Source: Antedon mediterranea (Eukaryota > Echinodermata > Crinoidea > Comatulida > Antedonidae). From it: a DNA stretch of 64,000 bases. This document shows positions 9,945 to 50,200 of the stretch, piece by piece. Each line of letters begins with the position of its first letter. Position 1 is the first letter of the stretch. Location of the stretch: positions 1,185,001 to 1,249,000 of the forward strand of contig NC_092671.1 of assembly GCF_964355755.1 (NCBI RefSeq), in the 5' to 3' direction. The notes below the pieces were generated by a model. The model searched no databases. It was not told where the DNA came from and worked only from the letters and a program-made list of their open reading frames with translations. The position numbers were made by a program, and so were the translations under genes.

Positions 9945-11400
9945 TTTTTTTTTAAAGGCCAAAATATCAACTTTTTAAAATTCAATCATTATGCAATAAA
10001 TTAAATAATAATAAAAGGGTCAAAATTTGGTCATTTTTCAAAAATTTCATGAAAGAACGACTCAACTGACACATTTTTCAAAAATGTGAACACCGTAATG
10101 ATATTATTATTGAATATTCTCCCTCTTAAATTAATACTTAAAAAGTAAAAATACAAGAAACATGAAAAACAATTTTCGAAAATTTCCCTGTACAGGGATT
10201 TTAAAAAAAAATTGCCATTTTTCGAAAAAACTGGTTACTATAATATAGCACAATTTACATGCACAGAACCATTAGACGACTCTGCGCATGTTTATTATGC
10301 TACAGTAACCATTTATGTCAAAAGTAACCACTTTTGACATAAATGGTTACTATAGCATAATAAACATGCGCAGAGTCGAATAATGGGTTCTGCGCATGTT
10401 AATTGTGCTATAGTAACCATTTATGTCAAAAAATAAAAGGGTCGAAAATCGGCAATTTTTCAAAAATTTTACAGGGATTTTTAAAAAAATGACAATGTTC
10501 GATAAAACTGGCTATAGCACAATTTACATGCGCAGAACCATTAGACGACTCTGCGCATGTTTATTATGCTATAGTAACCATTTATGTAAAAAAATAAAAG
10601 GGTCGAAAATTGCCCATTTTTCAACAATTTCCCTGTACTATTATAGTACAGAGATTTTTTCAGAAAATGGCCAATTTTCGACCTTTTTATTTTTCGATAA
10701 AACTGGTTACTATAGCACAATTAACATGCGCAGAACCCATTAGTCGACTCTGCGCATGTTTATTATGCTATAGTAACTATTTTTCAAATATGGTTATGAT
10801 AGCACAATTTTCGACCCTTTTATTTTTTGACATAAATGGTTACTATTGCATAATAAATATGCGCAGAGTCGAATAATGGGTTCTGCGCATGTTTATTATG
10901 CAATAGTAACCATTTATGTCAAAAAATAAAAGGGTCGAAAATCGGCCATTTTTAGAAAATTTCCCTGTACTATATAGTACAGGGATTTTTCAAAAAATGG
11001 CAAATTTTCGACCTTTTTATTTTTCGATAAAACTGGTTACTATAGCACAATTGACATACTAATCAAACTAATATTATCTACACACGTGAAGAGCTAAAAC
11101 AAGAACACGTTTTGTTGATTATCTCAAAACTTTGCTTTATGCGGTATAGTATAGTTTAGGGATTTTTTCAAAAATGGCCAAAATATTGACTTTTTTAAAT
11201 TCAATTATTATGCGATAATATTGCCATATATGCACATATATTGCATTATCACCATCTTATAGTCATATTAACCAGTTATGACAAAAAATAAAAAGGTCGA
11301 AATTTGGTCATTTTTCGAAAATTTCCCTGTATTTTTCAAAATTGGCCAAAATATCAACTTTTTAAAATTCAATTATTATGCAATAATATTGCCATATATG
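9945..11400. repeat. Field of nested palindromic repeats
   Basis: Alternating direct and inverted copies of two palindromes. One is centred on CCCTGTACTATAGTACAGGG (about 10630-10655 and 10965-10990). The other is centred on CTGCGCATG...CATGCGCAG (about 10255-10410, 10520-10575, 10725-10760 and 10855-10900). They are joined by the recurrent link AAATAAAAGGGTCGAAAAT and its inverse. The unit is related to the sequence at 11155-11400 and 12255-12470. A foldback or MITE cluster is likely. There is no coding content. Confidence 0.75.
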
Positions 11401-15500: not shown

Positions 15501-17213
15501 AAGAACTCCCGAAAAGAAAACTACAAATGCAACATGAGTGTAGCCTACCTGTTCTGATAAATCTTTGTCCAGTAGATTTGATTTCAATTGTGTGCAAAAC
15601 CTGTATGCAAGTTCTCGAAATCTTGCTTCAAAATCTGTAACAATATAACACTTTAATTTTTCATTTTCCATGATTTCTTCTTGTTTTTGTGATCTTTGAA
15701 TCGTTTTCTTTTGCGATTTTGTCACGGTTTGATTGAGGACTTCTGATTCAGGTGATGTTGCCACGTCAACCACTTCCTGCGGTTGCCAAGCAGCAAAGAG
15801 GATGCCAAAAAGTTGCGATGTTACCAGACGTACCCATGCATGTGGATGGAGAAGATGAACTTCAACTGAACCTGTGAATATTACAAGAAACAAAGTTACT
15901 GTTTATACTGTATGACTGTCGCGGAAGCCATCGCCTTTCACGTCAACCTTTTCCCGCATCCCACTCCGAAAGCTGCCTAATAATTATGTGATGGTTGGCA
16001 AAAATGAAAACATTGCACACATATTTGCACAAAATTAGAAAAACAAAATTCAATTGTTGATAATGTTGTTCTGATAACTAACCCCATAAATGATTCATTG
16101 CTGCTTTGTAGGTGCCACTATTGACTATATTGCACATGTGCAACATTTTAGCCAGTGTACTGAGAAGATGGTACAACAAGTGGTCTAGATCTTCTTCATC
16201 ATCTGCAGTGCCAATGTCATCTTCCATCACCTAAAATCAATTATGATGGATACTGATGAATTAAAATCAATTATGATGGATACTGATGGATTAAAATCAA
16301 TTATGATGGATACTGATGGATTAAAATCAATTATGATGGATACTGATGGATTAAAATCAATTATGATGGATGATATATTCTAAAATCAAATCTTATTTCA
16401 TGATGAAATAAAAATTAATTATGTCATGATGAAATCAAAATCAATTATTATGAAGTCATGATATAAAATATATTTTCATCAACTTCTGCATTTAAAGTAA
16501 GATCTGAATATTTTATATAGATCGTAGAAATGTTACTGTAACTTTGTGTTATAATAGTAGTTTTAAATTTCTATTATAGATAAAATGACTTCTGAGCAAC
16601 AAGAAGCCCATCAAAAAGCCTTTATAAAACTCAATATAGAACATCAAATTTCTGTTTTATTAATCATTATTATCTAATATTTTTCAAAAAGAAATTTTTA
16701 TTTTATGTGCACCTATTGTAAACTATAAAATGTTATCAATTTACCTTTTTAAATCTTTGTTCCGATATGATTCCACCAATCAGCTTCAGTGTTTCATTTG
16801 CTCGTCTATCAAAGTCTAACCTTTCTGCTTCAATGAAGATGCCACAGATCTGGGCTGCCAATCGCTGATGCATGACCTTCTCGTCATTTAACCATTGTGT
16901 TACCATGGCAAACAGACTGTCCCGTCTTCCAATATCAAGCTGATAACGTTAAATATACTTTAAATTTACTAGTAATCTTTTCAAAATATTTTACAAAATT
17001 CTAACCTTTTGCAGGAGCGATTTGAGAGCTATGCCACCAGTTTGCTTACCTTTTGCAGGAGTGATTTGAGAGCTATGCCACCAGTTTGCTTACCTTTTGC
17101 AGGAGTGATTTGAGAGCCAATGCCACCAGTTTGCGACATTTAGCAGAATCATCATTCACTAATCTAGTTGCCATGGGAATAAAGAACAAACCATAGTGTT
17201 TATCCAGAGTTTT
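12538..17213 (-). CDS. UTP20: UTP20 exons 50-56 (C-terminal part)
   Basis: Exons: 17094-17213, 16745-16939, 16083-16230, 15549-15871, 15048-15429, 14629-14774, 12538-12681. Exon 53 carries the conserved VEVHLLHPHAWVRLVTSQLF and exon 54 QVIKNLVFIARVI. Exon 56 encodes the basic tail (AAAKRKIKKQ, KKESKKRK, QPKKKKLKNTNQF, stop), a plausible nucleolar localisation signal. Exon 50 has two extra copies of its own end and donor immediately downstream. The last intron (12682-14628) is mostly two minisatellites. Confidence 0.95.
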
Positions 17214-20200
17214 CTGAAAGAAAATTAGAAATGATAAAATGTATTATTAGCCAAGGAAATCATCTTTTGATTTTGATAAGTCTTAAATATCACATGCTTC
17301 GTAGTTCTGCTTCACAGAATGCTTATTTAACTATTTATAAATTCCTATCCACCATGGTAAATGATAATAATGACAAAGCTAACAGGATTAAAATGGCTTA
17401 CAAACTATACATGTCATATCCAATTAATGTCATCAGATGCAAATTTATTTGTACAAGTAAATAAAAATTGTAAATTAACCTGTGGAAAAGATGAAAACAT
17501 GGTTGCTAGCATTTCCAGAGCAGATACTCGTCCATTTTCTTCATCAAATGACAACTGTCCTACGTAGAACTCCAGATGTTGCTTCAGCTTGCTACCAAGT
17601 GGGTAGTCAAGTAAGAAATGGAGAACAACCTGCGAAGTAGATTATTGGAATTGGTTATATATTTAATTCAATTACATTTATATCTCATTTCTCTCGGGAA
17701 AACTTCAATTCTACATGTTAGGCCATGGGTTCTCTCTACCCAAACAGACATTACAATATATATATATAATTTTGTCACTCACTTGCCGACACTGCAGCCT
17801 TACTGAGTGCATCTCACTCCTTATGGATAATTCTGCTACCTTCTTCATTACATCATGAATTTCAGGTACCATTAGCTGACGTCCTAATATGGCCTACAAC
17901 AAAAACATGTACATAGCAACATTAACAACACTGTTTAATCTTTGCTTTGTTCATTAATTTGTTGAACCATGATGTACTGCATAATTTCACTAAATTAATA
18001 CTGTAACCAGCGTTATATAATAACTGTAACACTTTATATGAACTTACCTTGAGTAAAGAAAAGGCAGTCGCTTGCCGTGTGTGGTCATGGATATCCTCCT
18101 CGGCAAAACTTAGTAGAACCTGAAGTTGCTCATCGGTGATTTGATGACCTTTGACATCACGGACTAAAACAGTGACAGCCTAAAATAAATAATAATCATA
18201 TATCAGTTTACCAATAACAGCTGGCTCATTAGTTTTAGTAATAAGTTTGATTACCATTTAAAAACCCAAAATCATTATTCTAATAATAAGTTTTATACTG
18301 TAAACTTGAACTTGAATATTGTTTTTTAATAAAGTTAAATGATTAAAATAAGTCAAATGGGGTAAAATAAATGTTATGAAATCAAATGCAGTCTTACTAC
18401 AACTTTTAGGCAATTTAATATTTAATAATTTAATAGGGCTACTATTAAAAAAACCAATTTGATGATTTAAATTTACCTTAAAACATGCCACCACCAATTC
18501 AAAGTTATCCCCTTTTCCGGCCCCAGTGCGTGCATAGTTCCTTAACAGGGTGAACAACTGTTGTGTAATCTTAGTTATGTTTGCCTCCAATGATGGAAGA
18601 GGAAATTTTAAAAGATAAGAGAAACATCTAAGAGCACATGTTGTCACCTGAAATAACAAGGTCAAATGTCATAACAAGGTCATGTCAACACTATTGTACC
18701 ATTTCCTTTACAATTGTATTTTATAAAAAGTCAGAATTAAATTTCTTTTTATTTCACAATAAAATACCTGGATTTACTTAATTTTTAAGAATTTTAACAG
18801 TTTAAAATAAAAATAAAATATTTAAAAAAAAATGTCACATTACTCTATAAATAGTACCTTAGTGTATTTTGAAGTTAAGCACTCGGTGAGTAGCTGTACA
18901 AATGGGTCTAGCATCTGTTGATGATCTGAGTTACCAGCATTGAACTTTGACCTTTTAAGTGACAAATAAAATAACTGAAAAATAAAAATAGGCAAATGAG
19001 AAATGATGTAATATGATTGGATCATTAATTATTTATTTTATAAAAATTATTTGTTCATCAGGAACCCGAACAATGTTCTATAATAAGAAGAGAGAGGTAC
19101 TGCCATATATAAAAAGAGCTGTAAACACACCTGAAGACCAAACTCCACAATGATGTGAACATTGGTTTTCACACTCATCTGTGGCATCTTCTGAGTTCTC
19201 TTGGGGGTCTCTGGTAGTAAGTACGTACTTTGTGGTTGTAGACGAGGGTTGCGTGGTAGCTGAACATTTTTTTTAGCTCTATACAAAATTAACATATATA
19301 TTTGTTGTTAATTTTCTTCAAATATTTACATTTAAATCATTGATTTCAAAACTAATGCAGTTTACAAAATATATTTTTTGGAAAAATAATTCATTTTTAA
19401 TAATTGTAGCATTTGATTTCAGGAACAAGTCAATAGGTAAACCTGTCCCTGTGCTGTAATATGCTGTAATGTTGCATCGGGACCACAAGATGTACTTTGA
19501 AAAAACGGTACTCATGTAATTGGAGGATGCTATGAGACATACAATGAACACACATAGCAAAGAAAAGTAAAACTAAAGTTACTTTGTCTTGTCTGTTACA
19601 AGTGGTAAGCTCTCAGTAGCAAGACCATGAATGAAAATCAACATGGCTGAATCATCTATCCCAGAATTCTCTAGCAGACCAATTTCCAGTCTACGGAGCA
19701 CTTCCTGTACTTTCTTGATCATCTTATGTGAATGAGAATTATCTAATACCTACAAAAATACAAAATTAAAACATAAAAGAATTAACAAGTACAAAAGGGA
19801 AACAAGAAGTAAAAGCAATATGAACCAAGTAAAGAAAGATTTACAAGGACATGTAGATATTAACACAACAAATGCCAAATATATATTTCAATCAATTCAA
19901 TCAATCAATTTACACAGACAAGCGGTAATGGTAAGCAGAAAACTGCGTAGCTTGTCTCAAATATAATCTGTATCTGTCTGAGCAGAAACAGCCCGTCCAC
20001 TCCTCCTAATTATAGTCACACCTACCTCTTTCAATGGCAGAATCAAAAGTGCAAGTGACCTTTGACTTATGAACTTTGACACTAATTGATATGAGTCGTA
20101 ACTCTTTGTTGATTTGGCTTCAAAGAGTTTGACAACAATTCCTGCTACGTTCTTTTCTTCGGCAACTTCACCAAAAAGTTCACTATTAAAAACCTACAAA

Positions 20201-23200
20201 GGAAAACAACAAAATCATCATCTATGTATGGATAAGGGGAATCTATTTTGAAATGGGAAAAATGCAAGCAGGAATATATATTCTAATTAAATAAATAGTT
20301 CATTGGATATTCATTCATCTTAAATACTTGTAGCATTGTATTTCAGGAACAGGTCAATAGGTAAACCTGTCCCTGTGCTGTTAAATGCTGTAATGTTGCA
20401 TCGGGACCACAAGATGTACTTTGAGAAAACAGTACTCTTGTAATTGGAGGATGCTATTGTAATCATCTTTCCTTCTAATCATTCACGATTGTTTTTAAAA
20501 CTTTTAATGTAAATGGTAACAATGTAGTAAAGATAAAGGATGATCAATCAGTCCATTAATTCCTACCTCAGTAAGTTGTTTTATACAGCAGTCCAAGTCT
20601 CCATGCTTAAGTTTATCAACTATCGTCTTCAGTAACAAATTCACAGTGTAGGCAAGTACGTGTAACTGGAAAGATAATAATAATATTCATTATTGTGTCT
20701 TCACAATATCATTGGCTTTATATACAAATATGCAAATACATAATCCAAAGGAAAAAATAATACTGAATCTCAATGGAGAAAAAAATAATAATCAAATAAA
20801 AACAGCCAGTCACAAAGAAGTGGCAAGCTAATGAATGATATGGCTATGAAGAGAGAATATCAGCCAACATATTATAATTCAATTCAGCCTACCTGGTAGC
20901 CTCTAGTGAGGGCTTGTTTGAGTTCCTTGAGGATAAAACTGAAATAATTGACCCCAAGAGATTGCAAGATCTTAACAAGTGTGTCACGGGTCACTTCACG
21001 AATGTCACGTGACCGACTCTTTAGCATTTGACAAACTTTGATGAGTACGCTACATAAAGGAAATAAAAAATGTGTTAAGCACATGTAACTACTTTCACAA
21101 CAATCAGGCATAAGTACTATTTTAAGCGATAGTGTTTACGATTTGTCTTTATTATACACACATCCATACACATGCGGTATCAAAATGACCGGAATTTAAA
21201 AAACTACATTATAAAAACTACTTTTAAAAGCCATCCTGTTTCTGGGATCTTGTCTGGATATACAACTATGTACATTATCAATACCACAATTCCTCAGCAA
21301 GTCCAAGTTCCAGAAAATTCTAAATTCTTTTCCAGGCTTTGCATCTTTTATTTGAATTACTTTTTGAATTATTCTGTAATAACTTATCAACTGTGATGCA
21401 TTGTGAAATAAAACGAATGAATGAATACAAAATAAAAGAACATACTTTGGTAGATACTGGTGCAATGCTCCTATAGGCAGAGATTGCAATAATTTAACCA
21501 TAGCAAGAGCAATTGGTACCCTCAACACTTCATCATCATCTACGGTGTTCTTCCTCACAGATCGATGCTCATCATCAGTACGGGCCTGAGCAAAAAGTAA
21601 AAATAAAACAATATTTTCAAAAATAATGTTTTAAGTGAAGAATTATATTTTCAAAATACAAACACTTTATATTACATTTTAAAAATTATTTATTTTTAAA
21701 TTTGTTTAAATCCAGATTTTAACATATTTTTTGTGACCTCGTTCATCACATTAAATAAATGAAATAATCTGAATCAAATACCTTTTTAGTAATAGACTTA
21801 AACAGCTGAGGTAGAATACTATTAATAATGGTGTGATGGATCCTGGTTGCTAGGGCTACTTTCCTCTCTTTCTCCTCCAGCTGGGTTTCATCCACTACCT
21901 GTTCATCCTCTTCAATCAAATCTTCTGTTTTTTCTAAATCATCTTTGACATCATTTTTATTTCTTTTAACTGAAATGTTACAGATTAGCAAAAATAATTT
22001 ACACATTTTTAATAAAAATAATCAGGAAGAGCATAACACACCAATTAATGACAACTCAAAGTAGTGTTGTGTTATGGAAAGGTGATGTGTTACCATAATG
22101 AGGTGATGCTTAATTGAAATACTTACAATCTTTTTCATCAACCAGCTCAACTCCTTTCTTAAACATCATGTAAGATTCAACTCCACTGGACAAAGACAGG
22201 TCAAAATGGAAGGCGTCCAAAATGGCAACCACTAACCTAGGAAAAAAACCCCATTTCAACTTTACATATTCTTACTAAACTCCATATAAATTAAAAAGAT
22301 CTGTGATACAAATAATAATATAGAAATAATAGCAACTTTCATATTTTTTTATTATTTCTAGTAGATGGTAAAATAAAAGTTGGCAACCATTTTTTAACAC
22401 TTGGTGGTAAACTTACTTTACAGCCACTTTCTGCCACTCCAGACTAAACGTCAACAATTTCAAATATTGCCGCAACAGTACACTGTAAAATTTCCATGGC
22501 AACTGGCTAGTTATAGCACCGATAGTATTGATAGCTTCAACAACAAAGTTTTGATCTTTCGCCAGAGACTGGTCAAAGACCATTGCTGAGGTCAGTGGCA
22601 GAAGATACTGGTACAGGTTGCTATGGCCTAGCTCACCATTTGAGCAGTGGTTCGTTAGACGTCGTAAAGCCCGCCCTCTTCGATGGATCTAAAAGGAAAA
22701 GTTCAAAATCAATGTTTGCAAATAAAGATATTAGCTTCACATTGAGAAGTCTTTCTTGAATATACAGCTTTTGAATACATAAATAGAATTAGCAGAAAGT
22801 CTCAATAATTTGATAAAACATTAGAATCAAAAAGATGTACCTGAATATGCTTAATATTTTCAAAGTAGTCTTTCTCCATATCTTCATCAAGTAGGACAGT
22901 CATGTCAGAGAATCTTGGATGATGTGGGAATGCCTTGACAATGTCTCGCAATAATGTCACTATCTCACCTCTGGACACCTAAAGAAATAACCAAGTTTAT
23001 CTTTTTGCTACAATCCGTTTACGGACATTTACCACTGGTCTGTTAATAATATGTTTCTGTAGTTGTGTATTACATTCTAGACTGTATCTCTAAATGAGTT
23101 GTTGCTGTTTATGCTACTATATGCTAGCAATAAATTTGATCATGGTAGGTACAGATTCTAGCTGATGATGTGTAAGCACATAAAATGTTCCAAGAGTGCT

Positions 23201-26200
23201 TTTTGTAATGATCTTACCTCATTTTTCAGCTTAATTCCCTCTTTTATTGCTGGCATAAATTTGTGTATGATAATTGAATTGAACAGTTCATCTCCAAAAT
23301 CGCCAGACTGCAGCTTGTGGATAATAGCTTGTAGGCAGTTGGTGGCATTATCTCGCAGTGACATCTCATCCACCTAAATAAACATACAAATTAAACATCA
23401 GAGAGTTTTCTATTCTAGGATAAAGCTAGGTCATTTAGTTCATTGGGCCATGCAGGGAAATTGGGTGCTTCCTCACTCTATTCCTTGACACAGATTTGAT
23501 GTTTTCTAGGTCTAGATTCTAGATGCATCAAATCTTTCCTATTTCTGTCACAAGACAAACATACTAAATGACTTATGACCTGATAATGACCTTTGATTGA
23601 AAGTAGTAGTACTATAAATATTCCTAAGAATTGCCAATGCTTTTATTTCTACTTTCTCTGGATACACCAATGTGGGTTCACTGCTACACAAATAAAGTGT
23701 TGATGCTGACGTGTACAACCATGTCTACATTTCTTTGATTTAATCTACTGTATGAAATTAACTAGTAATGTTAGTTTTCAAGAATATTTTTTTTCAGAGA
23801 AACTTTGCTTTTGTTTAATCCCGTCACCGTCACAGGTTTTGTTATGTTTATCTGCATTGATAAATGAAATGAAATTACCTTAGAAATAAAGAAGAAACAA
23901 TTGTTAATCAAAGGTGTCAACACTTTCATATCCATGTTCTTCCAGTCAGCAATTAACTCACAAACTCGTTTAAAACATTTGAAACGAGTTATAAAATCGG
24001 GTTCTTCAATGTGTCGTTTATCCCATGCATTCAACTCAGACATCATCTCAGCTGTTGCCTTTAACGTCTCGTCTTTCTCGGCCATCGAAGCGAACACTTC
24101 TACGAGGATGACACGCGACTGAGGGTACGTTAGAGTGTATAGCAGTTTGGATACTGGTCTGTAGGCAAGACAAATGATAAAAGATCAATGCTTCATATCA
24201 GAAGTTTTGGATTGGATTTATTAAATTTTATTAAATACAAACAAATATTTCTTACCCGAGAAAAGAAGATGGATCTGATGTTTTTTTGATAACATTTCTA
24301 ATGGTCCGCAGAATATCAAGTTCAACATTCTGAAAACAAAAAAAATGGAATTATGCAAAATACATTACCTTTTTTTTATAGCTATTTTATCCTATTTTTA
24401 TATATTTGTAATGCAAATCATTTCAGTCCTCGACTGTTGTAATTGGATGTATTTTTATTATACCGAATAAATAAAATAAAAACCTTTGTTTGGTGACGTT
24501 TGCGATATTATCATTTGTTTACTCACATGACAACGACGACTGATTTGATTGGCTGAGTGCACACACATCAGCAAACTAGTTTGTGAGGAAGGCCTAACAA
24601 ATTTCTATAAATCTCTGAAGTTGGTCAACTGGTCAACACTGGTCAACTAAGTTTGCTTGGTGTGTGGAAATGTTATTTCTATTTACCTGGTTTCGGCTGG
24701 TAGTCATTTTTAAGTAAGGCAGTAATAAAGACACAAGAACAATGCACTGTTCCTCATCCGACACAAACAGGCTAATCCTATCAAAATACAAATAAATGTT
24801 ATTTAAAAAATGTTTTTTCTTCAAAATAAGATTACAGATTCTACGACATTGCTGTATGTGGAATATCATACCTGGAAAGGATGTTAAGCTCTCTCATTGG
24901 CAGGTTCTTCTTCTCGTATTTAGTTGTTACTGTCGCTTTTAGATAAGTCAAGATAGAGTTGACATGAGGAAAGATCAACTTAGTGCCGTATGTTGGTGGC
25001 TCTATTTAAAGTAAAATTCCAAAATCAAGATTCTATACAAAAAAATGTGTACAATATTAATATTATCAACATTCTCTGTTTTAACAAATCAAGAGAACAA
25101 ACCATTAAACGTTTCCTCTTCAATAAGTGAGACATCTAAACTATCTTGCACGTCAATCTCCTTTGTAACATCATTTGGTTCAAAGTTTTCACATACTAGT
25201 AGGTTTTCCACAATGTCCATAACCATGTCCAGTACTGGTTTAGTGGTCAGTTTGGACTTCAGTAAAGCCATTACATATGGAAGAATCGTAAGTTCTTTAT
25301 CATCTGGGTGATGTTTAGCTAACAATAGGAAGAACCTGATGGATAAAATAAATGAAATACAATGACAAAAACAAAATATTTAATCGTCACTTTGATGTTA
25401 CCAAATAATAATGCTATTCAATCAAACATGAAAGTTATAAACAAGAATTGGAATTGTAGCATTTGATTTCAGGAACAAGTCAACAGGTAAACCTGTCCCT
25501 GTGCTGTTAAATGCTGTAATGTTGCATCGGGACCACAAGATGTACTTTGAGAAAACAGTACTCATGTAATTGGAGGATGCTATTGCCATGTAACTAAATG
25601 ACCAAGTATAGTCCCAGAGGTAAGAAATTTAGCCAAAATTAGGGGGAAAGATTATAATTGAATTGCATTAAGTAATTTACCAAAGTATTTTTTCTGAATT
25701 AGGGGGTGGGATTATACTTGAATTGTATTAATAACTAATTTACCAGTAGTATTTTGTCTGAATTAGGGGTGGGATTATACTTGAATTGTATTAATAGCTA
25801 ATTTACCAGTAGTATTTTGTCTGAATTAGGGGTGGGATTATAATTGAATTGCATTAACAACTAATTTACCAAAGTATTTTGTCTGAATTAGGGGTGGGAT
25901 TATAATTGAATTGCATTAACAAGTAATTTACCAAAGTATTTTGTCTGAATTAGGGGTGGGATTATAATTGAATTGCATTAACAAGTAATTTACCAAAGTA
26001 TTTTGTCTGAATTAGGGGTGGGATTATAATTGAATTGCATTAACAAGTAATTTACCAAAGTATTTTGTCTGAATTAGGGGTTGGATTATAATTGAATTGC
26101 ATTAACAAGTAATTTACCAAAGTATTTTGTCTGAATTAGGGGTGGGATTATAATTGAATTGCATTAACAAGTAATTTACCAAAGTATTTTGTCTGAATTA

Positions 26201-29200
26201 GGGGGTGGGATTATACTTGAATTGTATTAATAACTAATTTACCAAAGTATTTTGTCTGAATTAGGGGGTGGGATTATACTTGAATTGTATTAATAACTAA
26301 TTTACCAGTAGTATTTTGTCTGAATTAGGGGTGGGATTATAATTGAATTGCATTAACAACTAATTTACCAAACTATTTTGTCTGAATTAGGGGGTGGGAT
26401 TATACTTGAACATGGGATTATACTTATGGTCATATACAGTAATAATCAAATACAATAAAATACATAAATACCTTGGGTTTTTACTCCATATGAAGATCAT
26501 CTTGAGTAAGGTTGTTGGACTTGTGATGCTCTCGTTAGGTAAACGAGAAATTTGAGGCCATACCGCCGCCTCAAAGATACAATTAACCTCTTCCAAAGAA
26601 AAGGCGTAGTTGTCAAAGATCGTGAAAAATTCAACGAGACGTTGGATTGCAAGAGGGCGTAACGTCTTCAGTTGGTTCACATGGTATGGTAGAATCTAAA
26701 TGTAGAGAACAAACACACAAACATGATTGCGAATTGCACTTTAATGCTTTATCTAATAAAGATTTTTCCTAATGATTTTTTATCTCACAATCTAAATATA
26801 ACTTTATCAAATAAGCCAATTGTAAACAGTTTGTAAACAATTTTTTCTTTGTCTTTCTACAATCTAGGTCACATAATGTTTGTCTCTCTACAATCTAGGT
26901 CACATAATGTTTGTCTTTCTACAATCTAGGTCACATAATGTTTTTATTATCTAGAATGTATATAAACTGATGAATATAAATGTGTAGGCACTTTTTATGA
27001 TTCTATCACAGGTCAGCTGAAAAAGGAAGTTGAGGCTAATTGCAAACTTGGATGGCTCACAATGTTTCTTCTCTAATAATGTTTTACAATCAAATACTTG
27101 TACAAACCTGATGTCTCATATCAAGCAGCTTAGTGAATGTGGCTATTAGACTTATGATTAACCGAAGGATCATGGGAAGGAAAGCTGTGACCATGTGACC
27201 CAACTTGCTGAATATCACTGCAATGGTATCAATCATGCTGAAACGTAGCAGACAATAATATTATTAATACTAGGTTGCTTGTATTTTAATTAAGTGGAGT
27301 AGACTTATCTTTTTGAAATGCATACAGTAACAAGTATACCCATGTACAAATCACACAATAAACAACTAAAGATGAGCGGTAAAGGTAGGCGGAAAATAAA
27401 AATAATATAGAATCTATTTTATTTCTTCTGACCATTTACACTAAATGTGGGCGGTCGAGCGGGACAAGCTACACGGTTTCAGCTTACCGTTACTGTCTGT
27501 GTAAATTGGCCTTAACTCATCTTTTGGAAATTGAAATATGTGCAGACATATAACAAGTATACCCATGTACAAGTATACCCATGTACCAGTATACCCATGT
27601 ACAAGTATACCCATGTACAAGTATACCCATGTACAAGTATACCCATGTACAAGTATACCCATGTACAAGTATACCCATGTACAAGTATACCCACGTACAA
27701 GTATACCCACGTACAAGTATACCCACGTACAAGTATACCCACGTACAAGTATACCCACGTACAAGTATACCCACGTACAAGTATACCCACGTACAAGTAT
27801 ACCCACGTACAAGTATACCCACGTACAAGTATACCCACGTACAAGTATACACACGTACAAGTATACACATGTACAAGTATACCCACGTACAAGTATACCC
27901 ACGTACAAGTATACCCACGTACAAGTATACCCATGTACAAGTATACCCATGTACAAGTATACACATGTACAAGTATACCCACGTACAAGTATACCCACGT
28001 ACAAGTATACCCACGTACAAGTATACCCACGTACAAGTATACCCACGTACAAGTATACCCATGTACAAGTATACCCATGTACCAGTATACCCATATACAA
28101 GTATACCCATGTACAAGTATACCCATGTACCAGTATACCCATATACAAGTATACCCATGTACCAGTATACCCATGTACAAGTATACCCATGTACCAGTAT
28201 ACCCATATACAAGTATACCCATATACAAGTACAGTCAACTCTCCCAATACCGGACTCTCCCAAAACCGGAATTCACGAAAAACCGGACTTTTTTGGAGGG
28301 CCCAATTTGTCCCTATTCTAAATGTACTGTAATTTATCATGAAAACCGGAATACCCAATTCCGGAATCCGGACAAATTATGAAGTACAAAACACGAAAAT
28401 TAGCGTCTGAAAACCGGACTGACAGTTAAAAAACTCCAAATATTTACGATATCCATATACTGTATTTACGAAAACAACGTAACATCGTCGTCGCTGACTC
28501 GGATTCAATACATTCACAATGTACAAAAGCTTTTAACCATACCCTCACCATGCATGAAGTGCGCGACGTTTCGCGGTACGATCAAATAATGTTGCCATGG
28601 AGCACTACACTGTGATTGACAGGTCAGTTCATTGTTAACCCACGAGGCGGCAATTGCTTTGTTGCGTATCGAACTGCGGTGGGCTTTTTCACATCGAAGC
28701 GCTATGTCATTGTCTTAATGTCTATTGTTTTTAGCAGGGAGTTGTTAACAACTCCCTGTTTTTTAGCATATGAATTGTTTTTTAATAAAGTTCAATTTAC
28801 ATTCCACTTTGTGTCTTTGTTTTGTTTAAATTATTGTTAAATTCACAATTGCAATAGGACTTTAAAAAGGAATGTTTCACTAAAAATGTGCATCATTATA
28901 AATTTGGAAATCATTATGGCAAAACGTAGACGGAATGAACTTGACTTAACTAGTGTTAATAAACTTTGAAATGTTACCAATTAATTATTGTCATTATTGC
29001 TTGGCTCGTTTACCTAATCAATTTTCATCATTGCTATCAAATTACGTCAAAATAAAGGAGCTTAAAAAACATGTGGTCTAGGTGTGGGCGTTTTTATTTG
29101 ATTATGACACCTCTGCACATGCGCATCAATCAAAGCCCTTTCACCCATGCTGCTGCTGCTAGCTAGCTCACGAAAAACAATAAACAGACCGAAATTATGT

Positions 29201-32200
29201 TCACCGTACGTACGTACGTAGGCCTTTTTGCCGTTAAAAACACATTGAGAAACAATAATTTACTATTGTAACATGTTTTATTGGTACAGTAAATAATGTA
29301 ACTTTTAAAAAAGGTAAATTGAATTACTGTAGCTTAATATTAATAAAGTAGGCCTAGCCTAGGCCTATATCAGTATTTATTTAATTAAAACTAGATTGAC
29401 ACAATCATAGCCTAGCCTAGGCCTTCCCTACGCTAGGAGACCGTACCGGGCAGCATTCGGACCGGTGATTCAAAGCATTTTCAGTGACAACGTGATGACT
29501 TTAAAAATACGTTTTCAGGAAACCGGACTTTCGAAAAACCGGAAAATATATGCCCGCCCAAGGGTGTCCGGTATTGGGAGAGTTGACTGTATAACCATGT
29601 ACAAGTATACCCATATACAAGTATACCCATGTACAAGTATACCCATGTACAAGTATACCCATGTACAAGTATACCCATGTACAAGTATACCCATGTACAA
29701 GTATACCCATGTACAAGTATACCCATGTACCAGTATACCCACGTACAAGTATACCCATGTACCAGTATACCCATGTACAAGTATACCCATGTACCAGTAT
29801 ACCCATGTACAAGTATAACCATGTACAAGTATACCCATGTACAAGTATACCCATATACAAGTATACCCATGTACAAGTATAACCATGTACAAGTATACCC
29901 ATGTACCAGTATACCCATGTACAAGTATACCCATGTACAAGTATACCCATGTACAAGTATACCCATGTACAAGTATACCCATATACAAGTATACCCACGT
30001 ACAAGTATACCCATATACAAGTATAACCATGTACAAGTATAACCATGTACAAGTATACCCATGTACAAGTATACCCATGTACAAGTATACCCATGTACCA
30101 GTATACCCATGTACAAGTATAACCATGTACAAGTATACCCATGTACAAGTATACCCATATACAAGTATACCCATGTACAAGTATAACCACGTACAAGTAT
30201 ACCCACGTACAAGTATACCCATGTACAAGTATACCCATGTACAAGTATACCCATGTACAAGTATACCCATGTACCAGTATACCCATGTACAAGTATAACC
30301 ATGTACCAGTATGCCCATGTACCAGTATGCCCATGTACAAGTATGCCCATGTACAAGTATGCCCATGTACCAGTATACCCATGTACAAGTATAACCATGT
30401 ACAAGTATACCCATGTACAAGTATACCCATGTACAAGTATACCCATGTACAAGTATACCCATGTACAAGTATACCCATGTACAAGTATACCCATGTACAA
30501 GTATACCCATGTACAAGTATACCCATGTACAAGTATACCCATGTACAAGTATACCCATGTACAAGTATACCCATGTACAAGTATACCAATGTACAAGTAT
30601 ACCCATGTACAAGTATACCCATGTACAAGTATACCCATGTACAAGTATACCCATGTACAAGTATACACATGTACAAGTATACCCATGTACAAGTATACCC
30701 ATGTACAAGTATACCCATGTACAAGTATACCCATGTACAAGTATACCCATGTACAAGTATACCCATGTACAAGTATACCCATGTACAAGTATACCCATGT
30801 ACAAGTATACCCATGTACCAGTATACCCATGTACAAGTATACACATGTACAAGTATACCCATGTACAAGTATACACATGTACAAGTATACCCATATACAA
30901 GTATACCCATGTACAAGTATACACATGTACAAGTATACCCATGTACAAGTATACCCATGTACAAGTATACCCATGTACAAGTATACCCATGTACCAGTAT
31001 ACCCATATACAAGTATACCCATGTACAAGTATACCCATGTACAAGTATAACCATGTACAAGTATACCCATATACCATAAACCAATCTATACCTGTGTAGT
31101 TTCTTGAGGGGTACAACTGCACTTAAATCAAGTGACTGTTTGACATCATTCAGCATTTCTGTACAAGAATCTGTTAAACAATTACAAGATTACATAAGTA
31201 AAGCCGTGTATTCATTTTAAAAGCCATTATGTTTAGATATCAACAGATACATACTAAACAAGATGACATCAGTTACCTTTGATTAAATGCAGACATGGTT
31301 CAGTAACAAGGTCAATAAATACTCGCAGTTCCTCCTCTTCAGAGCCAGCTAAGAATCGTAAAATAACAGACCTTCTTTGTGCTGACCCTGCACGACCTTG
31401 CGTTCCAGCTCCAGCCTTACCCAACATCTTGCCATACAATATCCTACAAGGAGTCAAGTTTATTATTCATTAAATAATAGTTGATTGTTCTGTAATGGAT
31501 ATTCATCATGTTGTCATATATACAAGATATAAGAAACTTTGTCTTTGTAAAAACAAAGAAATGTCAGTTGTTCGCAATTCGATACATATACATAAATGGA
31601 TTAAATAATAAATAACAAAAATGTAAAATTCATCAGGTTATACATATTTATCATGTTATCATACATGTTATATTCATGTTTTCATACATACTCATCATTG
31701 CACCAGTTTATGTACACATAATGATAGAAAAAACTGACAAGAAACTCTTAGTACCTCATCAATATTGGGATCAAACCAGCCCTGTGACTCTTATCAACAA
31801 TGCCATGTTCAGGATCGATGTTGAATAATGCGATTTCTTCACGGAATGTTTTATCATCCATGAGAAGTTTGAAATGATCCTGGTATGGTGTTAAGTACTT
31901 GTGCTTATAAGCAAAGAGACAGTCAAGAGCGGTCTTCTGTACCTTGCCATACTTGTGTGAAAGAAGCTGCAACATTTATCAAATTAAAGGTGATTGATTA
32001 AATCACATAAAACAGATGGAGATGTCCATGGGGAAAAAAGAAAATGTTTTAATAACTTAAGGGAGAATACTGTAAAGCCCTGTCTACACTATTTGGTACA
32101 GTAGTGATATGCCCAAATATGGTAGTGATATGCTTAAATATGGTAGTGATATGCTTAAATATGGTAGTGATATGCTTAAATATGGTAGTGATATGCTTAA

Positions 32201-35200
32201 ATATGGTAGTGATATGCTTAAATATGGTAGTGATATGCTTAAATATGGTAGTGATATGCTTAAATATGGTAGTGATATGACATCATTATGTCCATATCGG
32301 CACATGACATAAAGATTGATAGTGTAGACAAGAGCTTATAGGGAGAATACTGTAAGGATAATAATGAAGATCTTACACACATTGAAACTGGGCAACTGAG
32401 GGCATGAGCAGAAAGCAAGATTTGCTATTCTATGTCACTTCTACTTACATTTGTGTATAGTTTTCTCAATTCTTGTTCTTGGTACAGACTTTTTGGTCCT
32501 CTGAACTTAGCAAACAGCTCAAGATGAGCTAACAGTGTCCTGGGGAAAAGAAATGTAAACAAATGAGCTACACAGTGGCAAGACATGCAATATAAAATTT
32601 AAAATAAATAATTTTTGTAAATCAGGCTATATTATTATTATCATGTGACTTACTGCGTAACTGAATGTTTTTGCTTTGTTTGACTTTTATTAGAATCACT
32701 TGATGTCTCTTCCTCATCTTCTGTTTCATCTACATCTTTCTCCTGGTTTGCTGAATCTTTCGTTCTCTCATTTCTCCTCTGAATATCTTGCGTTGGCGCA
32801 TTGAGCACGTCTGATGGGTAATATTCTTTTCTAAAATGAAGAAAAAGTATATATTAACATGTTTATCATGCTATTAATATGTTTAAAAAGACTTTTACAC
32901 AGGCTATAAACATGTGTAAAAGGCTCTTTACACATGTTCTAGGCTATAAACATGTGTAAAAGCCTCTTTACACATGTTCTAGGCTATAAACATGTGTACT
33001 GAGCTATTAACATTATGTAAAAGGCTCTTTACACATGTTCTAGGCTATAAACATATGTAAAAGGTTCTTTACACATGTTCTAGGCTATAAACATGTGTAC
33101 TGAGCTATTAACATTATGTAAAAGGCTCTTTACACATGTTCTAGGCTATAAACATGCGTACTAAGCTATAAACATATGTAAAAGGCTCTTTACAAATGTT
33201 CTAGGCTATTAACATGTGTACCGAGTTATTAACGTGTGTAAACGGCTCTTTACACGTGTCCTGGTTGTGACATATTATGTATTGCGTACTAATAACATAT
33301 TTATTGGTCTTTTAAAATGTGTACAGGCTTTTTAAGCACCCAGTATTAATGTATTTTATTGCAATATTCAATTTTCCCACCAGAGTACTCACCACCACCA
33401 CCACACCAAGCCACTTACTCTATAAACTTTAGAAACAATGGAGTTAACTCCCGAGACCGCAGTTCAGCACGGTCTGCAAATAAATGCATGGCTTTCCACG
33501 CCTGTTGACGAAAGTTCACATAGTCTGGTCTGTCTTCATCTAATACCTGATCATTGTACACACTGCTAAAGAGCAGACTCAGGCTGGTTACGTTGTCATC
33601 ATCTTCATCTTCTGATAGTTGCGAGTTGGGTGTCTGAGAACCTGTTGTATCGTTGCTTCCAAGTTGTTCACATATCCCAGCTACTATCCTCAAATGGTCA
33701 CCATATATTTTCCAGAATGATTTTTTATCCATTCCACAGGCATGGCTTCTATTAACATCAAAAGAAAAAAAGGTGTATTTAAACTACAATATAGTAACCA
33801 GTTAAATATAAGTATTTTAAATAGATGTATAAATAACTATGAACTAAAGCCCTATATTTACAGTGATCATTCTATTGTGAAAACGTATTCACTTTTATAC
33901 ATTACAATTTCATTTTAGGTTAAATTCAAGATAAATTACGAACCTGATAAGTTCCATTACTGGTTCCCATAGTAACCGAAAGTTGACATATAACATACTG
34001 ACCAAGTAAAGAAGAGGCACCTACAGAAAAAAAAAAGATTAAAAAAATCCTCCTCATCGTATGACATCATCAACATCCCATATGACATCATTAACATCAC
34101 ATACTGTATGACATCATTAACATCCCATATGACATCATCAACATCCCACATGACATCAACATCTCATCATGACATCATCATTCCATATGGCATCATCAGC
34201 ATTCCATATGGCATTATCATCATTCCACATGACATCATCAGCATTCCACATGACATCATCAACATCCCACATGACATCATCAACATCCCATATGACATCA
34301 TAAATCACTATAATCTTAATCCTTATCTCTCACCAACCATCGCCATCAAATTAATATTTAAGTATAATCTAAATTCACACACTTAATGTAATGTTACAAG
34401 CAGAAGTAATGTCTTACTTCATGTAGATTGGATTCTTTAGGAATGTTATACTGTACAACATTATAGTCAAGATGCTGTAGACACTTGAGTTTTTCTCTGT
34501 AATCTGCTAATGTAACTGGTACCATCTCAGCTCTAAGACAAAGTCTAAAAATACCAACTTGCTCAACCGACTGAAAAAAAATATTTCATTTGATTCAGTC
34601 TTTAAAATAAGAAAATAATACGACAGGTTTATAGGAAACCGTATTCACCATTCACACTAAGGCTAAGAGAAACACTTACCCTTAAAATTAAAAACAATCT
34701 GCTATCTAAGTAAATACAATTTAAGGGAAATGCTTAATATTTAAGGGAAATATCTCACTTAAGTTTGATTGGTGATAGACTTGCTTATCCACCTTGGACA
34801 CATTTCGTCAGGAGATGTTCCTCATAAGTTTTAAAAACAGTATTTAAAGCAATTAGTTTAGTAGTCTAATCAATGACTTTACTTTGACCAGCACGATCAC
34901 TTTACTTTGACAAGCATGATCACTTTACTTTGACCAGCATGATCACTTTACTTTGACCAGCACAATCACTTTACTTTGACCAGCACGATCACTAAGCAAG
35001 AATACACCCATGTAACAAGATTGTGAAGGCAGGGGGCGATACCAATTTCCCAAAAAATAAATTTGTAAATTATTAATTCTGTACTCACCACTTTGTCTTC
35101 TAAAGTTGGTAGATCTAACAGGAATGTTGACAGAATGTGTAAACTTAAAAGACGAACCTGAAAATAAACAAAACATAAAATTAATTGATTTAAAATTGAG

Positions 35201-44200: not shown

Positions 44201-47200
44201 CTTTATGCTTTCGCCAAAATGATTATTTAATTATCTATTTTATCATATGTCATCGCCAAAATGGCTAAAGTAGCCGTTTTATTTTTCGCCAATCTAGAAA
44301 CGTTTTCGCCCATGGCGACTTGGCGATCGGCCAGTGCGAGCCTAGTGTACAGTCAACTGTGCAGATAGAAAACTTTACATTAGACCCACAGTCAACTGTG
44401 CCGATAAAAAATAATAAATTGCATGCATGGTTGATAGCCACTTCCATAGAAATAAAATCAAGCTGTACACTTACCATAATGCTGAGTACAGTTCAACTCA
44501 GACCACTTGGCTAAGCCTTCAGCAAAGAAAGAATCTGCGTCCTATATTAAAATTTAAAAACAGGTGCTTTTTACTTTTCTTGTTAGATATACTCTATAAT
44601 ATAATCCTTGATGCAATATAATATTTATAAAATAATAATAAAAAATGATATCGTGTGTGTATTTACAAATTACCAGAAGCAGCAGTATCTGCATTTGTTG
44701 TGACGTACTATCTCCCGGAGGTTGTATAGTACAGTAGGTCATACAATTGACAAGTGCATAATATTGTAACTTTATTTGAAAAACAATGGAAACCCAAACA
44801 CCATAGGCCTATTACTATAAGTTGAGAAAATTGCACGTGGAACTAAATAAAAGGGGCATAGAAGCTTTTAGACAACAAAAGTAAATATCAAAAGATAAAA
44901 ATTATTCAAAATACCTCTGGTAATTGCTGTGTACGACTTCCATGTCTGATAACATCGATATTCACTTTAGCCAATCGCTCAGAAAAAGTCTCAAACTGTA
45001 TTAATTGATAAAAGATAAAAAAGTAAACCAAATGATTACGATTGCTAATGAATGAACCTAGCCTAGCTAGACCTAAGCCCTTGATGACAAAAATTTATTT
45101 AATTTTAAGCAAGTTTACAAAACATACAAATCATTTTGCAACAATACAACCACAAGTTAGGCCTATGTAGTTGAGTGGATTACTGTCAAAGCGGCCGCTA
45201 GTTCAATAACGGTAATTTGTATGGAACGCCGTGTGCGCTTTGATTGTTTCGACAGGTTTTCTTTTCTTTGGACGTAAATAACAATCTACATTATTAATAT
45301 TATGTAATTTATTCTCTTTTTTTTACAGATTGAATGTGATACCTTCTTTTAAACGAAATGGCGAATCAATGGTTACTTACTTTAACTGTTCTAAATGATA
45401 TATATGTTTAATAAAGTCGATAAAATACATTGTGGTGTTTGTATTGTATATCAATATAATATACTGTATAATGAGCGAATTATTAAGAATAATATATATA
45501 TTTTTTCAATAAAGTATATCAAAATATATATATTTGATATTAATATATTAGTAAAGTAACTACTGTAAGTAGTACGTGTGCGCAAACATAATTTAATTAC
45601 AATAACATGATGACATCAATTTTTCAAGATTACACAAACCAACAGTGGTGTTGGTAGTCTATGAGTGCCGCTTACCTGGATAAACCAACATAAGCCTCTC
45701 TCTCCGACGAGAGGTAAACATTACGAAAAGAAGAACATTAATAACATTAATTTTTCCCCACCCCCGTCGGATAATGGATCAGTCCGCCACCAGTACGCCC
45801 TCAAGTGAGACACACCCACTTATCATCGTCATCATTTCTCAAGACCACCTGCCTGAGGGGACGGTAGGGAGGGCGTTTATCCAGGTAAGCGGCACTCATA
45901 GACTACCAACACCACTGTTGGTTTGTGTAGTCTATATCGTGCCTAGCTTACCTGGATAAACCAACATAAGCCAGTGTAGCACCGGACTAGAGTCTAGTCG
46001 GAGGCGGGAGGCAAGGTAAACATTGTCATACATACCTAGTGTCTGGGCTTCAAGATTGAAGCCGCCACCGTAGACTGGTTTGCGGAGGTATCCGACAGGT
46101 AGTGGGATGTGAAGGTGGACTGTGATCGCCACCATGCCGCTTGCAGGATGTCTGGAAGGGGCACCCCAGCAAACAGCGCCCATGAAGCGGCTATGCCACG
46201 CACTTGGTGCATATGTGCCGGAGGAGGCGTATTTGTGGAGTCGTAACCAGCCCGGATGGCTGCCACGACCCAGTTTGCCAGCGTCGACCGAGCAGCCGGT
46301 CGGAAGGGTGCAACTGTCGATACGAACAGATGTGACGCTGAGACCCGAATGGACTCTGTGCGTTTGATGTAAAACTTTAGTGCCCGCACCGGGCACCAAA
46401 GTCCGTCTTCCTCAACCCCTGAACATGCAGCAATGGTGGGAATAAACACAGTCGGCGGCGAGAAGTTCAATGTCTGAGATTTTGCAAGGAAATCTTTTCT
46501 AAAAACCAACCGCGCGCCACCCCGTTCAAACCTGATGTGCCCTGGCTCCAGAGAAAGAGCATGCAGTTCACCTCTGCGCTTGCACGAGGCTAGTGCAATC
46601 AAAAAGGCAGTTTTGAGAGTCAGGTTGTAAAGTGATGCCCTACTCAGGGGCTCGAAGGGTGGACGCATAAGAGCGGCTAGGACGACATTGACGTCCCAAC
46701 GTGGAATCAGGGCCTTAGTAGGAGGCCGTTCTCGAAACATCCCGCGAAGCAAACTGGAAATTGCAGGGGATGAAGAGATGGTCGAGCCGTCCTTAAAATT
46801 CGGAATTACTGCACCCAAGGCAGACCGATAGCCGGATACGGTGCGAACCTGCAGACCTGACTCAAACAGGTAATGTAGGAAAGCGCAGACCTGGCCCAAA
46901 GTCACTTTCATAGGGTCGGTCTTCTGGCGCTTGCACCATTTGAAAAAGTGTTTTAATCGGCTATTGTAGACAGCAAGAGTGGATTCCCGCCGGGATTTCG
47001 CCGCGAGGGCGGCCGGGCCATCTGGAATGCCTGAGTCTCTGAAGCGATCCCTGACAATGGCCATACAGTCAGGTCGAGGGATATGAGGTTCGGTAGAGCA
47101 AACCGAGCTCGGCCCTGCGTCAGCAAGTCGTTCCGAATCGGAAGACGTAACGGCTGATCGTACAGAAGGCCTAGTAGCAGTGGAAACCACGGCTGCCTGG

Positions 47201-50200
47201 GCCAATACGGCGCTATTAGTAGGACTCGGCATTGATGGCGCTGAATGTGCGTCAGGACCAGTGGCAGAATTGAAATCGGTGGAAAGGCATATGCCCAAAG
47301 GTTGTCCCATGGTATGGACAGGGCATCCACCGCCCACGCATGAGCATCCCGATATCGACTGCAGAAAGTCGGGAGCTGCGTGTTGCCTGACGTCGCAAAC
47401 AGATCTACATGGGGCCGCCCAAAGTGGTTGAAGATTTGGGTGGCGATTATTGGAAGGAGACGCCATTCCGTAGGACGTAGAAGTGGACGGGACAGGGCGT
47501 CCGCCACTATGTTCAGACGACCCGCAATGTGGGCCGCTGACAGTTGGATGTTGTGCCTTATACACCACATCAGCACCGTCCACGTGTGGCAACATAGCGT
47601 GGGGGACCGTGTACCCCCCTGCCTGTTTATGTATGCCACGACGGTTGTGTTGTCGGAATTGACGAGAACATGGCGATTTGCCAGGTGGGGAAGAAGAGCC
47701 TCCAACGAGCGCTCGACTGCCCAAAGTTCGAGCAGGTTGATGTGGGCGCGCGTCTCCTCGGGCGACCAGAGGCCGGAGACGCGAATGTCCGGAGACGGTA
47801 TGTGACCGCCCCAGCCTACTTCGGATGCGTCCGTTTCCACACGGACATCCGGAATTGACCTTTGTATAGGTGTGCCCACAAGTAACCTGTCTTCCACGAG
47901 CCACCATTCGAGATGCGAGATAATGAACGCATTCGTTGGAACCACTTTGTGTAGAGGGTCTGATCTTGGGCGGTATGCTGCCAGAAGGTGCAGATGTAGA
48001 GGCCGCATCCTTAACCGGCAGAACGGAACGAGAGTGACGAGGCTGGCCAGTGACCCCAAGGTGCGTAGCCAGTCGTACGCCGTCGGAGCCTGAGCATTGA
48101 TAAGATGTAGCACTGCAGTTCTTGCCTTGGCCACACGCTCGATGGATGGGCACGCACGGCCCGTAACCAAATTTATTTGGGCTCCGAGATACAGAGGGTT
48201 CTGAGAAGGGAGAAGACATGACTTCTCCTCGTTTATTATGAACCCTGCTTGTTCCGTCACGAGGCGGACAAAAGATAAGCTGCTCAGCAGCTGGTCCCTG
48301 GACTGGGCCACGATCAACCAATCGTCTAAGTACATGAAAACTCTGATGCCGTGTTGATGAAAGAACACCGCCAGGGTTCTCACTAGACGAGTAAACACTC
48401 GTGGGGCCGTTGAGAGGCCGAACGGCAGAGCTACGAATTGGTATACCTGATCGTGAATGCGGAAGCGCAGCCAACTCTGGTGTTCTTGCGCAATAGGCAC
48501 GTGAAAGTACGCGTCTTTCAAGTCTATTGTGGCTGCCCAGTCCCCTCGTCTTAGCCCCAACAGGATAGATGAGACAGTCTCCATCCTGAACCTGCGGGGC
48601 CGAATGTACCGCTTGTTCAGACTTTTGAGGTTTAGGATGGGTCGCCAATCGCCCGATTTTTTCTGGGCGAGGAAAACGGTGGATTCGTGTCCCGGGATCG
48701 TAAGTTGTTCTTTTTGAACATGCACCACAGCTCCTTTCTGGAGCAGTGCTTCGAGGCCCGTCATGAGCGCTTGACTCTTTTCCGGCTCTGACGGAATCCT
48801 CGTGTGCCGGGCACCTCCGCTCACCGGAGGGCTCGAGAATTCGATACGATACCCGTGTGTCACGGTGGAGAGAACCCATCTGTCTGTGGTCAGGGTCTCC
48901 CAAACCCGTGAAAACCGTTTCAAGCGACCCCCCACCTGCCCGCCCTCGCTTGGAGGGACGGGCGCCCCCAAGCCGTCACCGGCGCTTCACATTATAATAC
49001 CGGCGACCACTCCTGTCGACGGACATAAGGACGTCCTCTGTCCGGGATTCCGAAGGCTTCAAAAAATTAGTCCTGGACGGGTCCAGGTTCTGGTCCTCAC
49101 GGACCCGTTCCTTCGCTGCCTCCGGGACGCTCGGCGCCGCGATGTACAGTTCGAATTGTTTCTGCGGCACCGGAAAAGCCGATGACAGGCTATAAGGCAT
49201 AGGCCTACGAACCTTGGACTCCTTAGCGATCAGCTCCACACGTTCCACAAGTTCTGGATCGAGAGGCGTAACCGGGCACGAAGATACCTTCTTAAAGGGC
49301 GTGCGTACGCCAAAAGTGGAATACCGCTTAGACGAAGGAGTATGCTTAGGCTCTCGATACGTGAAATCGACGCCGAGAAAGGACAGCACCGCGGGGACCG
49401 TCCGCATAACTAGCGCCTGCAGACCTTCCTCCCCTAGCCCGGCCTGCTCTCGTAAGCTATCTCTATCATCGTCAGAGAGCGAGGCCATCGTCCTGTCACT
49501 ATCGTAGTCCCTTTGCCGGACGGACGAACCATCGAAAAACGAGGTTTGCTGTGGGCCAACATCAATGTATGGAATCTGGGGAGGAGGTCTACTCTGAGAG
49601 GGTACCTCAGGCTCATCCCTCGGCAGAGCTCTCACAGCTGCAACAATGGCTTGCAGTAACCCCGGAGAAATCTCATTCACCCCCGGAACCGCAGAGGCCG
49701 CAGCCGGTGCAGGCATATCTGGAAGGCTAACTTCCGGCGCGACGACAGGAGGGCCTGCCGTATCAACGGTACCCACCTCCGGAGGTGGTACCGCTTCCGT
49801 GCGCTCTTTAGGCTTAGGGAGCGATTTGAACTTGGACACAAACATCGCACGGCGACAACTCGGTACACGTGCGGCAATTTATACACTCCAAGTGGCGGTC
49901 CCACTTCACGGTAGAGCGGGGACCCCTACATTTAATACAGTCCTGCTTAGGCATGGTGATCTAACAGACCTACTTTTCCCCACTAGCCTAACGAACAACA
50001 AAAGATCTTCCAGTATTTCTATCCAGGTGAAACACACTGGATAACGGCTTACAACGCTAAATTTTAACTCCTGGCAACTAGTCAAGGGTAACGATTCTAA
50101 ACGTATCCACCACAAGATAACGATCTACTACACTTAGCTTCGTTTTCTTGCTCTATTCTTCTCTTCCAGTCTACAGTATAAAGGTCTTTATCGCAAATTC

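Follow-up and report, generated by a model that had tools for sequence, protein, structure and literature searches.

Intron-encoded box H/ACA small nucleolar RNAs (snoRNAs) are released from their host transcripts by splicing and trimming, and are protected by core proteins. In some animals one such RNA is encoded more than once in the same gene. Chicken GGgACA4 is located in introns 6, 7 and 10 of PABPC4, and GGgACA22 in introns 2 and 6 of TBRG4 (Table 2 of PMC2653536). In Drosophila, the pseudouridine synthase gene mfl/Nop60B harbours snoRNA H1 together with four isoforms of DmSnR60 (PMC1821038). For chicken and fly, these two papers document that a single host gene can hold more than one isoform of a snoRNA. 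Here we describe a comparable locus in the crinoid Antedon mediterranea, where three introns of the gene UTP20 each carry a copy of one sequence of about 132 nt. The window, that is, the whole stretch of DNA analysed, comprises 64,000 nt of contig NC_092671.1, and all positions below refer to it. In our view, these sequences very likely encode isoforms of a single box H/ACA snoRNA that is processed from introns. They are:

19402..19533, minus strand: putative H/ACA snoRNA copy 1; host intron of UTP20 with 304 nt
20326..20457, minus strand: putative H/ACA snoRNA copy 2, the most stably folded one; host intron of UTP20 with 373 nt
25452..25583, minus strand: putative H/ACA snoRNA copy 3; host intron of UTP20 with 1136 nt

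With box H/ACA snoRNAs in general, the copies share a plan of hairpin, hinge, hairpin and tail, an ANANNA motif, an ACA about 3 nt from the end and a length of 130 nt, and they lie in sense within introns of a ribosome-related gene. They differ from that class in lacking a recognised family, in having pockets that are nearer to the boxes as folded, and in target scans without a significant match. With chicken GGgACA4 and GGgACA22 they share the distribution of isoforms of one H/ACA snoRNA over several introns of one gene, whereas the chicken host genes are different ones and the chicken RNAs have predicted rRNA targets (PMC2653536). With mfl/Nop60B they share a host gene of ribosome biogenesis and isoforms of one snoRNA, one per intron; the fly isoform set, in contrast, is of the box C/D type with long complementarity to 28S rRNA (PMC1821038).

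The copies are 132-133 nt long, 93-96% identical by BLAST and all in sense with UTP20, and their gapless alignment contains 11 variable columns out of 133. Their likeness begins with ATAGC... at the left and ends 1-3 nt past an ACA at the right, the flanks being unalike, so that the shared block starts and stops at the predicted ends of the mature RNA. An earlier note on this DNA, made from the letters alone, had placed three copies of about 132 nt at these positions, in sense and inside UTP20 introns, which was right; its statement that they are the only alike parts of their introns also holds, similarity ending sharply on both sides. The same note saw conservation concentrated on the fold. 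The flanks do differ, as it said, but near-invariance covers the whole mature RNA including the loops, so that this part of the claim was overstated.

Fold, boxes and host introns

In all three copies, and in both the minimum free energy and the centroid structure, the sequence folds into a hairpin, a hinge with ACAUUA, a second hairpin, an ACA and a short tail, which is the plan that had been described before. Box H (ACAUUA, matching ANANNA) occupies alignment columns 62-67, in an unpaired hinge directly after hairpin 1 of every copy. Box ACA occupies columns 127-129, directly after hairpin 2, and the likeness ends 1-3 nt later. The boxes map as follows:

19467..19472, minus strand: box H (ACATTA) of copy 1, unpaired hinge
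19405..19407, minus strand: box ACA of copy 1
20391..20396, minus strand: box H (ACATTA) of copy 2
20329..20331, minus strand: box ACA of copy 2
25517..25522, minus strand: box H (ACATTA) of copy 3
25455..25457, minus strand: box ACA of copy 3

Fold energies for copies 1, 2 and 3 are -33.7, -44.0 and -38.6 kcal/mol. Compared with shuffled sequences, the sense z-scores are -3.6, -6.1 and -4.5, and the antisense z-scores -1.3, -2.6 and -1.8, in the same order; relative to shuffles, the sense strand is more structured than the antisense strand. A descriptor of the H/ACA shape was then applied. It asks for two single hairpins, the first closed off by ANANNA and the second by ACA; in either hairpin the lower stem must have 4 or more pairs, and the internal loop 3 or more nt per side. 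On both strands of positions 12001-42000 (30 kb) it matched 12 times, and the three copies took ranks 1-3 with -43.5, -38.1 and -33.2 kcal/mol. Rank 4 (-31.4) re-uses hairpin 1 of copy 2, and the best independent match reaches -20.3. One of 3000 dinucleotide shuffles of the copies met the descriptor, at an energy of -15.0. The gap between copies and controls is wide despite the fitted shape of the descriptor.

Identification of the host gene is based on two single exons matching PDB chain 7mq8_SP, 'Small subunit processome component 20 homolog', which we take to be the human chain. Peptides joined by hand over each of the three introns, together with the neighbouring exons, are colinear with this chain, matching residues 1987-2128 (copy 1), 1846-1986 (copy 2) and 1148-1272 (copy 3). 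One 2-residue gap in 7mq8_SP is found beside the copy-1 junction, and none at the junctions of copies 2 and 3. Intron bounds follow a GT-AG reading of the sequence, and exon bounds were read by hand. The numbers 43, 41 and 28 previously given to the three introns are mutually consistent in a hand count of exons, as relative numbering only. From the end of each copy to the 3' splice site the distance is 123 nt (copy 1), 132 nt (copy 2) and 116 nt (copy 3). The introns and two adjoining exons are:

19279-19582, minus strand: host intron of copy 1, 304 nt
20194-20566, minus strand: host intron of copy 2, 373 nt
25336-26471, minus strand: host intron of copy 3, 1136 nt
19583..19749, minus strand: exon of UTP20 on the upstream side of copy 1; the peptide joined over the intron matches 7mq8_SP 1987-2128
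20026..20193, minus strand: exon of UTP20 on the downstream side of copy 2; the peptide joined over the intron matches 7mq8_SP 1846-1986

Tandem repeats also occur in the UTP20 region. A 62-bp unit, repeated in tandem about 12 times (25650-26410), takes up most of the copy-3 intron, just upstream of copy 3. At 17004-17134 (minus strand) a 44-bp unit is repeated about three times across the boundary at which a UTP20 exon meets its 5' splice site, creating three successive candidate 5' splice sites, AAAAG|GTAAGC twice and then AAAAG|GTTAG. Long arrays at 27553-28231 and 29589-31074 have a 16-bp minisatellite in common, with 42 and 93 units, respectively. Elsewhere in the window, inverted arms of 170 nt (100% complementary) surround open frames of up to 979 codons at 45627-50446, an arrangement presumably like that of a DIRS-type retroelement, and at 10269-11331 there is a cluster of inverted repeats that overlap one another and have arm lengths of 55-141 nt.

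Distribution in the genome and competing explanations

The own genome of the species (354 Mb, 18 contigs) was searched with copy 3, which returned three matches, namely the three copies, all on the minus strand. When copy 2 served as the query and E values up to 10 were admitted, there were again three matches only, the same copies. This search evaluates top-scoring candidates only and passes over words of very high frequency, and its counts are lower bounds, with three candidates listed each time. All matches share one orientation and fall in a 6.2-kb part of a single gene. A covariance model built from the copies and run over the whole window found no fourth copy, and none in the introns in between; the matches that follow score 20.5 bits at most and comprise antisense stretches over the copies and the minisatellite at 30.5-31 kb. 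Within 30-nt flanks, no target-site duplications were detected at the copy ends. The longest word shared by the two flanks has 7 nt in copy 2 (TGAATGA, away from the ends) and 4 nt in copy 3, and for copy 1 no shared word of at least 4 nt was found. A 6-nt inverted match, TAGCAT, between the ends of all three copies is accounted for by the likeness between the lower stems of hairpins 1 and 2.

Retroposition would be one way to arrive at such a pattern: a real snoRNA would have been copied via RNA into two more host introns, and one or two of the copies would now be dead or redundant. Likeness limited to the mature RNA is what is expected of a copied RNA, although equally sharp ends are expected from selection on an old duplicated RNA. 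Copy 1 is the least stable (-33.7), and copies 1 and 3 are mismatched where copy 2 pairs, which would fit this reading. On the other hand, the ends lack target-site duplications and, by eye, a long A tail, and insertion into the same gene and always in sense is unlikely by chance. Moreover, chicken snoRNA paralogs are almost all intragenic duplications with no evident retroposon-like counterparts, as reported in PMC2653536. Taken together, we regard retroposition as unlikely.

A smaller probability still is given to a structured intronic element that acts in UTP20 splicing or in retention of the intron RNA and is not an excised guide. In all copies a distance of 116-132 nt separates the end from the 3' splice site, and the target scans described below yield no significant target, both of which would fit such an element. 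However, it would need neither boxes H and ACA nor the two-hairpin plan, which a single one of the 3000 shuffles possesses, and the introns in between are without a copy, the covariance model detecting no fourth one in the window.

Near-identical copies with unalike flanks are also the expected look of a dispersed repeat, such as a miniature inverted-repeat transposable element (MITE) or a short interspersed nuclear element (SINE), that landed in UTP20 three times, and the inverted TAGCAT at the ends could be taken in its favour, though the lower stems explain it. The earlier note had named many copies genome-wide, in both orientations and outside introns, as the sign of a MITE. On 354 Mb there are three matches only, in 6.2 kb of one gene, in one orientation and without end duplications. 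Since only three matches on one strand of one gene were found, a MITE or SINE appears very unlikely on sequence grounds, and the probability of any dispersed insertion is close to negligible. Equally negligible is the idea of alternative or cryptic coding exons. In its favour, all three copies share an open frame on the minus strand (IASSNY.STVFSKYILWSRCNITA...), and copy 2 has a GT at the block end (ACAAGT). Against it, copies 1 and 3 lack a GT there (in copy 3 one follows about 15 nt further), additional residues are absent from the PDB UTP20 chain at the three junctions, and changes at columns 20, 74, 76, 100 and 119-120 alter the amino acid while those at 27, 33 and 106 are silent, which gives no sign of protein conservation.

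Fold, boxes, orientation, intron position, ends and genome search thus support the earlier proposal of one H/ACA snoRNA in three introns, as judged from the sequence. The further idea in the earlier note, a coupling of the processome with the supply of modification guides, is a conjecture.

Family, pockets and candidate targets

Several observations weigh against the assignment of the copies to the H/ACA class. The copies were found by their mutual likeness, but the descriptor was drawn up with the fold already in hand, and its exact shape is a fitted one. Covariation offers no help: none of 37 pairs is changed on both sides, and 4 of 111 cells are unpaired, in three near-identical rows. As the copies are near-invariant, there is no covariation to count, and the fold rests on energy and boxes. 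The pocket and lower stem of hairpin 2 are variable (columns 74, 76, 119 and 120).

The pocket of an H/ACA RNA normally lies 14-16 nt from the box. Pockets in both hairpins of each copy had been reported before, and internal loops are indeed present in both; the bases of the upper stems, however, are 9 nt (hairpin 1) and 12 nt (hairpin 2) from the box as folded, below the usual distance unless pairs open. Hairpin 1 arrives at 13 nt if the four lowest upper-stem pairs, A-U and G-U only, are open, and hairpin 2 at 14 nt only if one C-G and one A-U pair are open. A CAB box, UGAG in an apical loop, marks the small Cajal body-specific RNAs. No apical loop of the copies contains UGAG; copies 1 and 3 have it in the stem of hairpin 1 only, and copy 2 lacks it altogether.

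With regard to family, an Rfam search, which the earlier note had proposed, found no family at gathering score in the window and hence no H/ACA family. The comparison across species was made through Rfam only. Nearest is SNORA35 (RF00566), the best covariance match, over its full length (1-129), at 25.6 bits against a gathering score of 39. Its E-value is 0.0027 for 156 nt searched and 0.52 for 30 kb, where copy 3 only is listed. Membership in SNORA35 was rejected because of the score, and the match probably reflects generic shared architecture, not homology. At E up to 5, the 30 kb gave 61 rows, of which 58 are microRNA models, mostly on 16-bp minisatellites; the others are SNORD35, SNORA35 and snoU54, all below gathering, with copies 1 and 2 not listed. 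The SNORD35 match (34184-34264, minus strand; 26.2 versus 36 bits, E 0.061) lies inside a 21-bp tandem array (34060-34301) and is probably due to chance.

For target scans we used the species' own ribosomal DNA, comprising a near-complete 18S, the 5.8S and about two thirds of the 28S; the 3' part of the 28S was found in degenerate copies only, and the scan is weak there. The positions of human pseudouridines come from Table 1 of PMC6182160 and were transferred via a human rRNA sequence that passed base checks. In total, 93 listed positions were mapped on three sequences (43 + 25 + 25, a stretch common to two being possibly counted twice). Shuffled-pocket tests refer to copy 3 only, and the scanner is uncalibrated on known guides. 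Over all U of the own rRNA, the best hairpin 1 score was reached by 89 of 150 shuffled pockets and the best hairpin 2 score by 107 of 150, a further point against a guide RNA.

Allowing one mismatch per strand, hairpin 1 pairs best with the own 18S U at human positions 1616 (-17.7) and 551 (-17.6), neither of which is listed in Table 1 of PMC6182160. Its best listed site is human 28S 4491 (-15.9), equalled at listed sites by 20 of 150 shuffles. The best site of hairpin 2 is 18S 943 (-14.4), unlisted, and its best listed one is 28S 3674, at rank 7 (-12.2), in one own 28S copy only (-7.6 in the copy L025). With a narrower pocket set, the best hairpin 2 site over all U is also the best listed one (-12.2), which 21 of 150 shuffles reach at listed sites. 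When no mismatch is permitted, the best listed site of hairpin 1 is 28S 4598 (-11.1; 113 of 200 shuffles), followed by 3618 (5+5 pairs), and the best of all U for hairpin 2 is 28S 3674 (3+5 pairs, -12.0), matched by 20 of 200 shuffles at listed sites and 73 of 100 at all U. The best hairpin 1 duplex, at own 18S GGGACU[UG]UAAUU (human position 1616), has 6+5 pairs, and 51 of 100 shuffles do equally well somewhere.

Small nuclear RNAs (snRNAs) were scanned using human sequences and a list of known sites, an imperfect one in which 3 of 27 sites are not U in these sequences. Hairpin 2 pairs best with U2 U37 (-12.2 in all three copies; 28 of 300 shuffles equal at the sites of this list), which we take to be a known pseudouridine; this duplex requires the opening of four strong upper-stem pairs. 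For hairpin 1 the best site is U2 U101 (36 of 300 shuffles), which is not on this list, and the best one on it is U2 U15 (-8.7; 102 of 300 shuffles). The sites 28S 4491, 3674, 3618 and 4598, 18S 1616 and U2 U37 are competing leads, not assignments, and none stands out clearly from shuffled pockets. A literature search yielded no paper on snoRNAs for human 28S 4491 or 3674. Target duplexes of chicken H/ACA guides go down to 3+6 or 4+5 pairs (PMC2653536), so that a candidate target is not excluded by short pairing as such. Of the two hairpins, hairpin 1 would be the likelier guide, because its pocket strands are identical among the three copies and the pocket of hairpin 2 is variable.

The rDNA searches gave some additional observations. 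In the own genome, a 28S copy is interrupted directly after CTTAAG (L016:8598), presumably the R2-type insertion site, and about 4 kb separate two 28S parts at the CTTAAG site in L018:2815-6856. Of 18 rows of the 28S search that start at query 968, 12 end at 1134-1137 and none extends further. Eight assemblies of bacterial species (L001-L008) have contigs exactly matching the eukaryotic 28S pattern, which is probably contamination; no conserved 28S pattern was found in viral contigs.

Proposed processing and meaning

Based on the H/ACA class, a possible mechanism can be outlined. After splicing of the UTP20 pre-mRNA, the three introns would each undergo debranching, and exonucleases would trim them. 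The core proteins dyskerin, NHP2, NOP10 and GAR1 on the two hairpins would stop trimming and leave an RNA of about 130 nt that ends about 3 nt past the ACA. Via the internal loop of one or both hairpins, this RNA would direct dyskerin to a uridine, the predicted substrate being most likely an rRNA or an snRNA. It is from the class that we infer processing, protein binding and guide activity. The extra copies may have arisen by local duplication within UTP20 and would raise the dose of one RNA per transcript: with three introns and one isoform each, the supply per transcript would be tripled.

A bolder hypothesis would be that of a lineage-specific orphan guide, in which pocket 1 directs a pseudouridine unknown in human rRNA and the three UTP20 copies tie its dose to the output of the small-subunit processome; we consider this improbable. 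What the sequence suggests is probably a new, orphan H/ACA snoRNA, without an Rfam family and ordinary in kind. No report of UTP20 as a snoRNA host was found in the open-licence literature, which is weak evidence.

New in this locus would be UTP20 as a host gene and an H/ACA RNA outside Rfam, and no principle is changed by either. The three introns of UTP20 may, however, serve as a usable test case for the question of whether the copy number of a snoRNA within its host gene is selected for dose.

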